Shown here piece by piece: positions 45,474-50,924 of a stretch of 64,000 nt of DNA. Below the pieces are notes generated by a model. The model was not told the DNA's origin and did no database searches. It saw nothing but the letters and a program-made list of their open reading frames with translations. Every line of letters starts with the position of its first letter. Within the stretch, counting starts at the first letter, position 1. Origin of the DNA: Alkalicaulis satelles (GTDB taxonomy: Bacteria > Pseudomonadota > Alphaproteobacteria > Caulobacterales > Maricaulaceae); contig NZ_VWOJ01000002.1 of NCBI RefSeq assembly GCF_008630495.1, positions 449,001 through 513,000 on the forward strand. The letters are read 5' to 3'. Both the position numbers and the translations under genes were made by a program.

Positions 45474-47393
<1,920 letters not shown>

Positions 47394-47575
47394 GGTTTGT
47401 GCTGCCATGAAATGACACTTCCGTAGGTTGGCAGACGTAAGTTGCCTAGCTCGCTCACCTATGTGACCAAGTTACAATGGGCATCTCGTGCTTGGCTCAA
47501 TCTGCTGTCTGAACTAATGTCTGCGCGTACAAAGCTGCCGCTTTCGATGCAGTGCGATGCAAGCTTTAAATAGCA

Positions 47576-47604
47576 TTGGCACTCTGCGCGAAGCACCGTA
47601 TCAT
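47576..47604 (+). promoter_or_regulatory. Near-consensus promoter of the AT-rich cassette
   Basis: TTGGCA (47576-47581) and TATCAT (47599-47604), each 5 of 6 to the sigma-70 consensus, with an ideal 17-base spacer. The likely start of transcription is about 20 bases before the first ATG. Confidence 0.6.
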
Positions 47605-47630
47605 CACCTCAAGAAGCTGGTTCCATATTC

Positions 47631-48434
47631 ATGCACGCCCGTCCCGAACATTTGCCCGAATTCAGCCACCCTCCACTTGTGGAGCTGGCGCTAGGGGTGC
47701 AATTCGCACCACTACCAAATTATTCAAGCCTATTCTTGGGCGATGTTTTCCGCATCTTTCAAGATGAGTTTCCCGGCTTTCAAGAGCACCCCCCCCTGAA
47801 TCCGCAGTTTGAAACGTTTGGTGGGGGCGGAACTGACGCGGAGTTTAGCATTGGGCTTGGGCCAAGTGTAGCCTTTAATAGAGCATGGTTCTTATCTACT
47901 GATAATAGCCATTTGATTCAGTTCCAACCGGATCGATTCATATTGAATTGGCGACGCCAAGCGGACGGCAATGTTTACCCAAGATTTGACAATATCGCGA
48001 TGCAATTTAAAAATTTATTCAGTAAGTTTGATGAATACTGTAAAGCGCGTTTCGAGCTTCCTATAAATATTAATCAGGTCGAAGTGACCTATTTTAACGT
48101 TATAGTCGTGTCGGACTATTCATCTATTGGCGAGTGGCTTACGGTAGCAAACCTATCCCGTTTTGAGATAGAAGGATTCTCAGCTAACTTCTCTACGGTT
48201 GTTGGTTCTGACGGCGGCGAGCCTATTGGACGATTGCATCACGAAATTGGCTCAGTGGTGGGGCGGAACCTTGCATCGAAGGCTTTCAGGTACAACTTGA
48301 CCTGCCGAGGCGCGCCGCAAGCCAACGATATCGACAGTGCGTTAGACTTTTCGGCTTGGGCGCGTGAGAAAATCGTAACGCGTTTCACAGAAACCACTAG
48401 CGGTGATGCGCATTTGCGTTGGGGAAAGAAATGA
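47631..48434 (+). CDS. TIGR04255-family protein (first gene of AT-rich cassette)
   Basis: A 267-aa protein with the marks of the sporadically distributed TIGR04255 family: an N-terminal PPLVELALGVQF (about 14-25), then AWFLS and LIQFQPDRFILNWRR (about 84-108), and a beta-rich second half. The family has no established function. Codon use is AT-rich and unlike the neighbouring genes, which points to transfer. The next gene starts inside its stop (ATGA), so the products are translationally coupled. No signal peptide or membrane helix. Confidence 0.85.
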   Translation: MHARPEHLPEFSHPPLVELALGVQFAPLPNYSSLFLGDVFRIFQDEFPGFQEHPPLNPQFETFGGGGTDAEFSIGLGPSVAFNRAWFLSTDNSHLIQFQPDRFILNWRRQADGNVYPRFDNIAMQFKNLFSKFDEYCKARFELPININQVEVTYFNVIVVSDYSSIGEWLTVANLSRFEIEGFSANFSTVVGSDGGEPIGRLHHEIGSVVGRNLASKAFRYNLTCRGAPQANDIDSALDFSAWAREKIVTRFTETTSGDAHLRWGKK

Positions 48435-48937
48435 ACCTTAGCCATTCAGCCTATACCTTCGATTATATCGAGCGCCCTAAAATGAAAGGGAGCACTGAAA
48501 CGATCGCGGCGTTCCGGGGGGGCGCTACGTGCAGGGTATCTAGTCATTCCTCAGAATGGATGAAGGCCCTTAAGCTCAGATTCGACCGAATAACGGCGTT
48601 ACCAATTGGATGGGACGGGTATGCTGGCCGACCTGTATCTTTTTCTTGTGCCGCCTTCGCGGCGAACATTCTGGAGCGATTGTGCCATGAGTTCCCTGAC
48701 CTGCCTCCACCCGGCGTAGTGCCCGGAAGTGACGGCACCGTTCAATTGGAGTGGCATGCGGGAGGCTTTGACATTGAGCTTGACGTTCTTGGGGTCAACA
48801 GCGTCGCGGCGGAAAGGTATGTTCACGAAACTCGCGAAATCGAAGAAATTGAGATTCGCACCGATTTTTCACGTGTAGTCCAATGGTTGGAGGAGTTATC
48901 CCAACGACGGCGCGAAATGCAAAATCAAGCGGCTTGA
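48431..48937 (+). CDS. Unrecognised soluble protein, second gene of the cassette
   Basis: A 168-aa protein with no named family. Conserved-looking features are LPIGWDGYAGRPVSFSC (around residues 59-75), PPPGVVPGSDGTVQLEWH (about 95-112) and FDIELDVLG. I recall similar WDGY/DG-VQLEWH proteins as small genes beside TIGR04255, but give no function. GGGGAAAG precedes ATG 48431, inside the end of gene 1. Soluble by appearance. Confidence 0.8.
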   Translation: MNLSHSAYTFDYIERPKMKGSTETIAAFRGGATCRVSSHSSEWMKALKLRFDRITALPIGWDGYAGRPVSFSCAAFAANILERLCHEFPDLPPPGVVPGSDGTVQLEWHAGGFDIELDVLGVNSVAAERYVHETREIEEIEIRTDFSRVVQWLEELSQRRREMQNQAA

Positions 48938-48947
48938 TGCATTGGGT

Positions 48948-49397
48948 ATGGAGCCGTTCGATGACAAGACCATTGCGGACGAAGACCCTATTGTCCGCCG
49001 CGTGAACCCTACAGAACACGTTGTCTTGGATGAGAATCTGGGAAAGCGACGTCTGTCTTCAAAACTGTGGTCCCCATCTACGAACCCTAAAGGCGGTATG
49101 TCCTGTGACCTGCCCAAAGCTATCGAAGCGGATGGATTAGATCCTTATGCCTTTGTTACAACACCAAAATATATAGCGTCGGTCGCCTTTGCAGCGAGGG
49201 ATGCGCGCCAAGCAAACTTAAGAATTGGGTGCTCACCTGTGCCTGAGGGACCGAGCGCACCTGGCAATCCGTACCATGCAGAAGTTTGGGGCGCTGAGGA
49301 GAAGGCGTACAAATTCACTGGTGCTCAGAAACGCGCGCTAATGAGAAGCTCAAACTGGTTTGTTCCCCTCGAAGGCGTAGAGATTCCTAGGGATTAG
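48948..49397 (+). CDS. Unrecognised soluble protein, third gene of the cassette
   Basis: A 149-aa protein containing RRLSSKLWSPSTNPKGGMSC (about 34-53), a middle segment FVTTPKYIASVAFAARDARQ (near 71-90), and a C-terminal NPYHAEVWGAEEK. The pattern is shared, as I recall it, with other hypothetical proteins found in such cassettes. No catalytic motif can be named. Start ATG 48948 is 10 bases after the second gene's stop, with a weak ribosome site. The AT-rich block ends just after this gene. Confidence 0.75.
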   Translation: MEPFDDKTIADEDPIVRRVNPTEHVVLDENLGKRRLSSKLWSPSTNPKGGMSCDLPKAIEADGLDPYAFVTTPKYIASVAFAARDARQANLRIGCSPVPEGPSAPGNPYHAEVWGAEEKAYKFTGAQKRALMRSSNWFVPLEGVEIPRD

Positions 49398-50095
49398 CAC
49401 CCAACCACAGAGAAGCATGCCTTCAGAAAACCGGGGATACACACCTATTTCCGCCCCACGGTCACTCTCACCCCTCCCAAACGCCCCCATCCCAACCCGC
49501 TGCCCCCCAACCCGCTCAGCCCGCATCAAGCTCCACCAGCCTGGCTGCCGCCCGCTGCGCGCCGTCCCGGGTCAAGCCCGGGACGGTCTTGACCCGCCCT
49601 GATGCTGGCGAGACGGACGGGCAGGGTTTGAGGGGGCGGGGTGCTGCGCCTACGCCTGAACATGGCCCGCATCATGTCCCCCATGCGTTTTCCCGTCGGA
49701 AGACGGGACCCAGAATCACCGGCGCAGCTGGACCCCGGCTTGCGCCGGGGAAACGCGCAGGTATGGGCGCGGCGTGACGCGGTGCTTTCCCTCCCCTTGA
49801 GGGGAGGGTCAGGGTGGGGTGGAGAGGCGGCGCGACATGATCACCCGCGCCCCCTCACCTTTATCCTTCGCTCAGTCGATTGATCCCCCGGATCAATCTT
49901 TGTGAGCTCAGCCCCCATGGTCATGGGGGAGAGGGGGCTTCTGGCGCTGCGTTTTATCCTTTGAGCCTGGGGTCAGGCATTTCCGAAACGAACCCGGCGT
50001 CAAAGCCTCCTCTCCCCTCTGTCAGAGAGGGGAGAGGGTAGGGTGAGGGGTGCGGCGCCTGCGTCTGAACATTATTCGCATCATGTCCCCCCACG
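49398..50095. repeat. Gene-free repeat field left of the GIY-YIG composite
   Basis: About 700 bases with no credible gene. Recognisable pieces are: CCGTCCCGGG/CCCGGGACGG near 49561-49587; a dyad GCGTTTTCCCG with CGGGGAAACGC (49685-49756); CCCTCCCC-TTGA-GGGGAGGG (49789-49808); and CCTCTCCCCTCT with AGAGGGGAGAGG (50009-50037). The line GCGCCTACGCCTGAACATGG at 49647 recurs with changes at 50056, both followed by CGCATCATGTCCCCC. The minus strand near 49520-49590 could be the decayed C-terminus of a gene, but this is not supportable. Confidence 0.6.
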
Positions 50096-50219
50096 CTGCC
50101 TTCCCGGGCGAGCGGAGCGAGACCCGGGACCCATCTACCGGTCATTGGCGACCGCTGAGGCGGTTGGGAACTATGGGGGATGGGTCCCGGATATTTGCTT
50201 CGCAAATTCCGGGAAGGCA
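50096..50219. repeat. Palindromic element copy A
   Basis: One of four copies of a ~125-bp element. Outer arms CTGCCTTCCCGG and CCGGGAAGGCA, inner arms GACCCGGGACCCATC and GATGGGTCCCGG, centre ACCGGTCATTGGCGACCGCT followed by a GCGGTTGG-type segment. The whole can fold into one long hairpin. Confidence 0.85.
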
Positions 50220-50264
50220 CGGGTGGGGGTTTGGGGAGGTGTGGGCAAATCACATCACCCCACG

Positions 50265-50389
50265 CTGCCTTCCCGGGCGACCGTAGGGAGACCCGGGACC
50301 CATCTACCGATCATTGGCGACCGCTGCGGCAGTTGGGATTTATGGAGGATGGGTCCCCGATATGGGCTTCGCCCATTCCGGGAAGGCAG
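50265..50389. repeat. Palindromic element copy B
   Basis: 125 bp, same arms and centre as copy A, with complete outer arms CTGCCTTCCCGG / CCGGGAAGGCAG. Separated from A by a 45-bp spacer that ends in CACATCACCCCACG and is repeated between copies C and D. Confidence 0.87.
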
Positions 50390-50403
50390 GCGTAGGCATT
50401 TGA

Positions 50404-50700
50404 TCAGACTGTCAGATCGTGGGCGAGGTCGCGCCAGTCGGGGTTTTCGGTTTCGATGAGGGTGATCTTCCAGGCGCGCCGCCAGCGCTTGAGCCGGCGC
50501 TCATGGGCCATCGCCTCCACCACATCGCTGTGATGGGCATACCAGACCAGGCGGGTCACGCCATACTGGCGCACAAAGGCCGAGCCCACGCCCTCGCGAT
50601 GCTCCCACACCCGGCGCAGCAGGTCATTGGTCACGCCGGTATAGAGCGCGCCCTGTTTCCGGTTCGCCATCATGTAGACGTAGAAATTATAATCGCGCAT
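50404..50700 (-). CDS. GIY-YIG nuclease-fold protein
   Basis: A 98-aa protein of the UPF0213/YhbQ-like GIY-YIG family: the YVY (GIY) and YTG (YIG) signature pair FYVYMM and ALYTGVTNDLLRRVWEH, followed by a late GSAFVRQYGVTRLVWY segment and a conserved KRWRRAWKI C-terminal helix. These single-domain proteins are mostly uncharacterised. ATG 50700 is the family-like start. It lies exactly between two pairs of palindromic elements and nothing else. Confidence 0.87.
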   Translation of the reverse strand: MRDYNFYVYMMANRKQGALYTGVTNDLLRRVWEHREGVGSAFVRQYGVTRLVWYAHHSDVVEAMAHERRLKRWRRAWKITLIETENPDWRDLAHDLTV

Positions 50701-50741
50701 GGCGCGAGTTTGATGCACTTGGGGCGCCCAGTACAGCCCAC

Positions 50742-50878
50742 ATGCCTACCCGGGCGACCCCGGACTTGATCCGGGGGAGACCCGGGACCCATCCACCGAT
50801 CATTGGCGACCGCATAGGCGGTTGGAAATTATGGGAGATGGATCCCGGATAGCCGCTTCGCGGCTTCCGGGAAGGCAG
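50742..50878. repeat. Palindromic element copy C
   Basis: 137 bp; like A and B but with a short extra GC-rich segment (GGACTTGATCCGGGGG region, 50762-50777) in the left half and TGCCTACCCGG for the left arm. Confidence 0.83.
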
Positions 50879-50924
50879 GGGTGGAGGTTTGGGGGCGATG
50901 TGCGGGCGATCACATCAACCCACG

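Follow-up and report, generated by a model that had tools for sequence, protein, structure and literature searches.

We found that the stretch of DNA analysed here (64,000 nucleotides, hereafter the window) carries, directly behind thiC, a cassette of three coupled genes, A, B and C. On balance we read it as a mobile operon, most likely anti-phage, that was inserted at a defence hotspot and belongs, as a TIGR04255-headed variant, to a wider group centred on B and C. A role in defence or conflict is quite probable from the genomic context. The initial annotation had proposed an undescribed defence or conflict cassette. The defence part of this proposal is strengthened by the hotspot behind thiC and by the presence of related genes, PDC-M32, in restriction–modification and prophage-immunity loci, with anti-phage activity itself inferred from such context. 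The undescribed part has to be qualified, since B and C proved to be tied to PDC-M32, a catalogued but unvalidated candidate.

Three coupled genes of foreign composition

The host gene thiC (45516–47393, + strand) lies outside the cassette and has a variable insertion site on its 3' side. Gene A (47631–48434, + strand, ATG start) encodes a protein of 267 aa that matched the NCBIfam model TIGR04255 with 61.2 bits against a cut-off of 30, which confirms the family to which it had first been assigned. Gene B (48431–48937, + strand, ATG start) encodes a 168-aa protein with a WDGY...EWH domain and a C-terminus reading ...QNQAA. It overlaps A by 4 nt, its start being placed on the stop of A as ATGA, and an alternative TTG start is possible at 48419. 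Gene C (48948–49397, + strand) follows after a gap of 10 nt; we took its start as the ATG, giving 149 aa, by agreement with relatives, and a possible TTG start at 48942 would give 151 aa. The coupling of the genes is thus as initially described, and so is their foreign composition: the cassette has a GC content of 0.506 and a GC3 of 0.52 (GC 0.48–0.53 for the single genes), compared with 0.66 and 0.86 for thiC and a GC content of 0.67 for the whole window. Chance open reading frames are excluded because 25–47% identity is kept across many loci.

Two other features of the initial description carry less weight. A sigma-70-like site (47576–47604, + strand; TTGGCA-17-TATCAT, a 10/12 match) is well placed, 27 nt upstream of gene A, but a scan of the region returned two promoter-type sites where 1.7 were expected by chance, and we dropped it as evidence for the cassette. 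The reported repeat field also exists, adjoining the cassette on its outside (49631–50891), yet it consists of an ordinary dispersed 154-nt element, one copy of which returned 20 matches in the genome, and several copies cluster here. Since the element is dispersed and no flanking direct repeat was found, we do not treat the repeats as cassette boundaries. Amid them lies a GIY-YIG-like ORF (50404–50718, – strand), and similar GIY-YIG ORFs occur near thiC in two other genomes (G083 and G173).

No Pfam model matched any of the three proteins, B and C had no NCBIfam match, and a profile scan returned no PADLOC match for A. An AlphaFold2 model of A (pLDDT 86.5, pTM 0.85) gave no significant fold match in the PDB; many Bet v 1/PR-10 and PRELI entries stood among its top hits, a weak likeness in the helix-grip/SRPBCC comparison (best E 0.02, TM about 0.1–0.25). 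The model of C (pLDDT 94) likewise had no significant match in the PDB, and its one weak viral look-alike is a protein of unknown function (A0A9E7QQI2, E 5.5e-3, TM 0.40). An R-S-H pattern in C, and the presence of HopF and DarT among the fold matches, brought ADP-ribosyltransferases into view. We do not claim this assignment, as the best PDB entry, AvrPphF ORF2 (1s21), reached E 0.61 and TM 0.32, and DarT ranked 26th with E 5.8. In a set of 24 C sequences, Arg19 and His112 never vary and Ser54 and Pro99 hardly do, a pattern that would suit a putative active site.

Distribution of the trio and cargo of the thiC site

TIGR04255 was present in 10 of 200 genomes of the order. Both B and C occurred in exactly the same five of these 200 genomes and in no others, each time in the order A-B-C, which bears out the sporadic distribution noted at the outset and rejects the possibility that the partners are not co-conserved. 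The class yielded a further four genomes with this order (G268, G234, G424 and G299, the last of them very diverged), and seven IMG/VR contigs have it too (L030, L031, L032, L035, L041, L047 and L048). Among the GTDB genomes that carry it are Rhodobacteraceae KLH11, Mesorhizobium amorphae, a UBA6178 MAG, Henriciella, Litorimonas and Robiginitomaculum. In all, the order was seen in 12 bacterial and 7 viral or prophage loci. Identities drop to about 15–25%, and the conserved motifs initially seen in B and C are nevertheless retained. Across 12 loci, A, B and C show correlated pairwise distances (0.72–0.77). In six of seven diverged loci tested, A scored above the TIGR04255 cut-off; the exception was L032, where B is apparently frameshifted. 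All three genes are genuine, inherited together and scattered in their distribution.

Some operons headed by TIGR04255 have different partners, namely an HTH protein (L117) and DUF7689 (L119). Three further TIGR04255 operons (G179, G082 and G192) share the shape of the cassette and have similar motifs. We do not claim their third genes as C homologues, the profile probabilities being 0.2–7%. A scan of viral sequences with the C alignment found no relatives, and a scan with a viral C returned that protein only.

To map what follows thiC, we used its homologues in 51 of 59 genomes of the window's bacterial family. The cassette lies directly 3' of thiC in three genomes (G000, G029 and G125), and in a fourth, G179, the same position is taken by the different TIGR04255-headed three-gene operon mentioned above (L118, 469–2229), whose third gene showed no profile tie to C. 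In the tree, G029, G125 and G198 form a clade with 100% support, apart from the window cassette, and the G198 copy lies elsewhere in its genome. Because the cassettes at the thiC site fall into two tree groups, one of them together with G198, the site was entered at least twice.

The position after thiC is often occupied by foreign DNA: an AT-shifted ORF stands right after the gene in 14 of the 27 family members with enough sequence. When we compared ten cargo proteins from this site with ten control genes from the same loci, nine of the former and one of the latter matched PADLOC, the single control match being an ABC-F-type ATPase. This enrichment supports the defence reading independently. 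The matched cargo comprised Drt8 (351 bits), RT_UG20 (548 bits), PDC-M31A/B (281 bits for PDC-M31A), PD-Lambda-3_B/HEPN with PDC-M34A, a Beta protein (161 bits), an HNH protein of the CBASS-effector/PDC-M68A type (99 bits) and PDC-M63A. After thiC, seven or more relatives have unrelated AT-rich genes that belong to known or candidate defence systems (loci L095–L114), and the Beta protein is accompanied by an ImmA/IrrE-like protein. One of the ten cargo proteins had no PADLOC match and some relatives look empty after thiC; the site can also hold non-defence cargo. We conclude that this family has a compact defence hotspot directly behind thiC. One relative (G138; L066/L111) has a diverged second thiC 3' end, 57% identical and with a broken frame, about 0.5 kb after thiC and beyond a DUF4262-like gene. 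This duplicate suggests cargo exchange by recombination at the gene end; as it was seen only in G138, we do not regard it as a general integration mark.

The recurrence of the cassette after thiC in three genomes, together with the other TIGR04255 operon in the fourth, might instead be taken to mean that it is a metabolic or housekeeping operon tied to thiamine synthesis by position. We consider this highly improbable. The cassette is confined to 5 of the 200 genomes and elsewhere sits at unrelated sites (uvrB, a tnaA-like gene and prophages), and most relatives have other genes or none after thiC, the same site holding reverse transcriptase, HEPN and HNH genes instead. Homology of the set to a metabolic operon, which the initial annotation had named as evidence against a defence cassette, was not seen, and nothing else we found points to such an operon.

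Relation to PDC-M32 and exchange of the first partner

The candidate to which B and C are tied, PDC-M32, consists of two genes, M32A and M32B. Gene B aligned with the C-terminal part of the PADLOC model PDC-M32A (residues 257–360 of 375, E 5.9e-8), and comparison with the C-terminal domain of genuine PDC-M32A genes by hhalign gave 97% and E 1.9e-11; the WDG..EW domain that ends PDC-M32A is present in gene B. For C the tie is more distant. The window C had no PADLOC match at E<=1, and its link to M32B comes from profile comparison (hhalign 69%, E 4.3e-5) and synteny, the gene being in the right position, while relatives of C matched PDC-M32B at E 0.005–0.04. Every genome in which M32B turned up had a B domain next to it, and in these cases the M32A and M32B genes co-occur and adjoin. 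From its length, the N-terminus of PDC-M32A was expected to be TIGR04255; sequence and profile comparison rejected this (with hhalign, gene A and the M32A N-terminus gave 0.2% and E 0.25), and no M32A N-terminal domain was found fused to gene B. The statement that B and C match no family holds for Pfam and NCBIfam but needs qualifying in view of PDC-M32. Judged by these comparisons, the cassette is a TIGR04255-headed variant related to the candidate PDC-M32.

Other first components were also found with B and C. As read by eye, B is fused to TPR-like repeats in L060 and to a zinc-ribbon-like N-terminus in L140; in one locus, L044, the partner is a ClpP-like SDH protease (NF047768, PF01972), so that the exchanged parts span binding types (TPR-like) and enzyme types (ClpP-like protease). 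B and C are the constant core, and the first partner swaps among TIGR04255, the M32A domain, TPR-like repeats, a zinc-ribbon-like domain and the ClpP-like protease.

B domains were also seen outside this arrangement. On an Acetobacter persici plasmid (L052, 6025–7330), two tandem B domains in one protein are followed by an SspB-family gene (PF04386), without C. Three phage contigs (L039, L040 and L042) carry stand-alone B domains of 74–83 aa, which are possibly decoys or reflect an older function of the domain.

A further observation concerns the end of B. Nine of 12 B proteins of the close group, including that of the window (48926–48937), end in Ala-Ala, as opposed to 13 of 265 background ORFs (4.9%). 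This end resembles a ClpX degron, which would be compatible with a labile inhibitor. The cassette could on these grounds be an addiction or toxin–antitoxin-like module in which C is the toxin, B a labile antitoxin that ClpXP would clear by way of its Ala-Ala C-terminus, and A a chaperone or co-inhibitor. The proximity of B domains to SspB, a ClpXP adaptor, and to the ClpP-like protease fits this idea, and the Ala-Ala end is found in G140 too, where B does not overlap C. However, SspB and the protease were each met at a single locus, the Ala-Ala end is missing from distant B proteins and from M32A, and in most loci that have it gene B runs into the start of gene C, such that the codons may be constrained. 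Three conserved components would also be unusual for a simple toxin–antitoxin pair, and the thiC site is enriched for defence genes. We regard such a module as unlikely, and retain the anti-phage operon as our preferred reading.

The surroundings of PDC-M32 itself bear on function. In three genomes PDC-M32 stands behind hsdM-like genes, recognised by eye from an NPPF methylase motif, and in five of six prophage loci (L134–L139) M32A-M32B lies directly downstream of an HTH repressor, one of which matched 434 CI and C.AhdI. In the prophage loci the GC content of PDC-M32 is lower than that around it by 5–14 points. A position behind a prophage repressor is typical for genes of superinfection immunity, and the picture is the expected one for immunity genes that the lysogen expresses. 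The same position behind CI-type repressors, and the close and distant copies in viral contigs, some of them beside tyrosine recombinases (L031 and L035, both by motif; L117, by a PDB match), are also what one would expect if the cassette were cargo of prophages or mobile elements with another role (lysogen control, counter-defence or superinfection exclusion only) that happens to occupy a permissive site. We think this improbable, since many copies are chromosomal with no phage genes nearby, the thiC site is common to dedicated defence genes, and M32 also stands behind hsdM-like genes; superinfection exclusion would, moreover, itself be anti-phage defence.

Proposed design and comparison with known systems

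Under the anti-phage reading, the three proteins would act together. A would be the exchangeable component that receives the infection signal, B a bridge that other branches have joined to their first component, and C, the most constant part, an effector that stays silent until phage triggers A and B. We base this design on three observations: C is constantly present, B is often fused to the first component, and that component is exchanged. The assignment of trigger, bridge and effector to A, B and C is rather doubtful in its particulars. We also put forward, tentatively, that B and C may form the centre of a modular immune system, as yet undescribed and made of uncharacterised folds, in which a B-type bridge would link the effector C to interchangeable triggers. 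If that is true, TIGR04255 would be one phage-sensing head of the system. Our comparisons make PDC-M32 one branch of a wider group with a swapped first component. What had been a lone database entry is now a three-protein design open to testing, and further systems may be worth looking for at the thiC site.

The family TIGR04255 (NCBIfam 'sporadTIGR04255') has no described function, and our literature search found no paper naming it. It now gains two constant partners and a genomic niche in the company of defence genes, and it is linked to a catalogued, untested defence candidate. A likeness to Dodola (DolA/DolB) is restricted to the A protein of one relative, G140, which touches the DolA model weakly (E 0.011), probably by chance. 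The window A has no DolA match and there is no ClpB-like DolB among the ORFs of the operon; we accordingly do not assign A to DolA or the cassette to Dodola.

The closest known relative is PDC-M32. PDCs are guilt-by-embedding candidates, mostly without experimental validation (PMC12988326; PMC11811056), and we found PDC-M32 in one paper, in which PDC-M32A/B appear, as PADLOC hits only, in prophage phiUSDA1157-039 of the Sinorhizobium phiLM21-like prophages (PMC12429752). That prophage carries the canonical two-gene form, without TIGR04255. In M32A the B domain is fused to an N-terminal domain of about 255 aa, whereas in the cassette B is a stand-alone protein and the N-terminal domain is replaced by a separate, unrelated TIGR04255 gene; the window C falls below PADLOC detection. 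What the two share is the gene order, the homology of B with the C-terminal domain of M32A and, probably, a distant homology of C with M32B. On these sequence relationships, the TIGR04255-headed B-C form is a variant related to PDC-M32, itself an unvalidated candidate.
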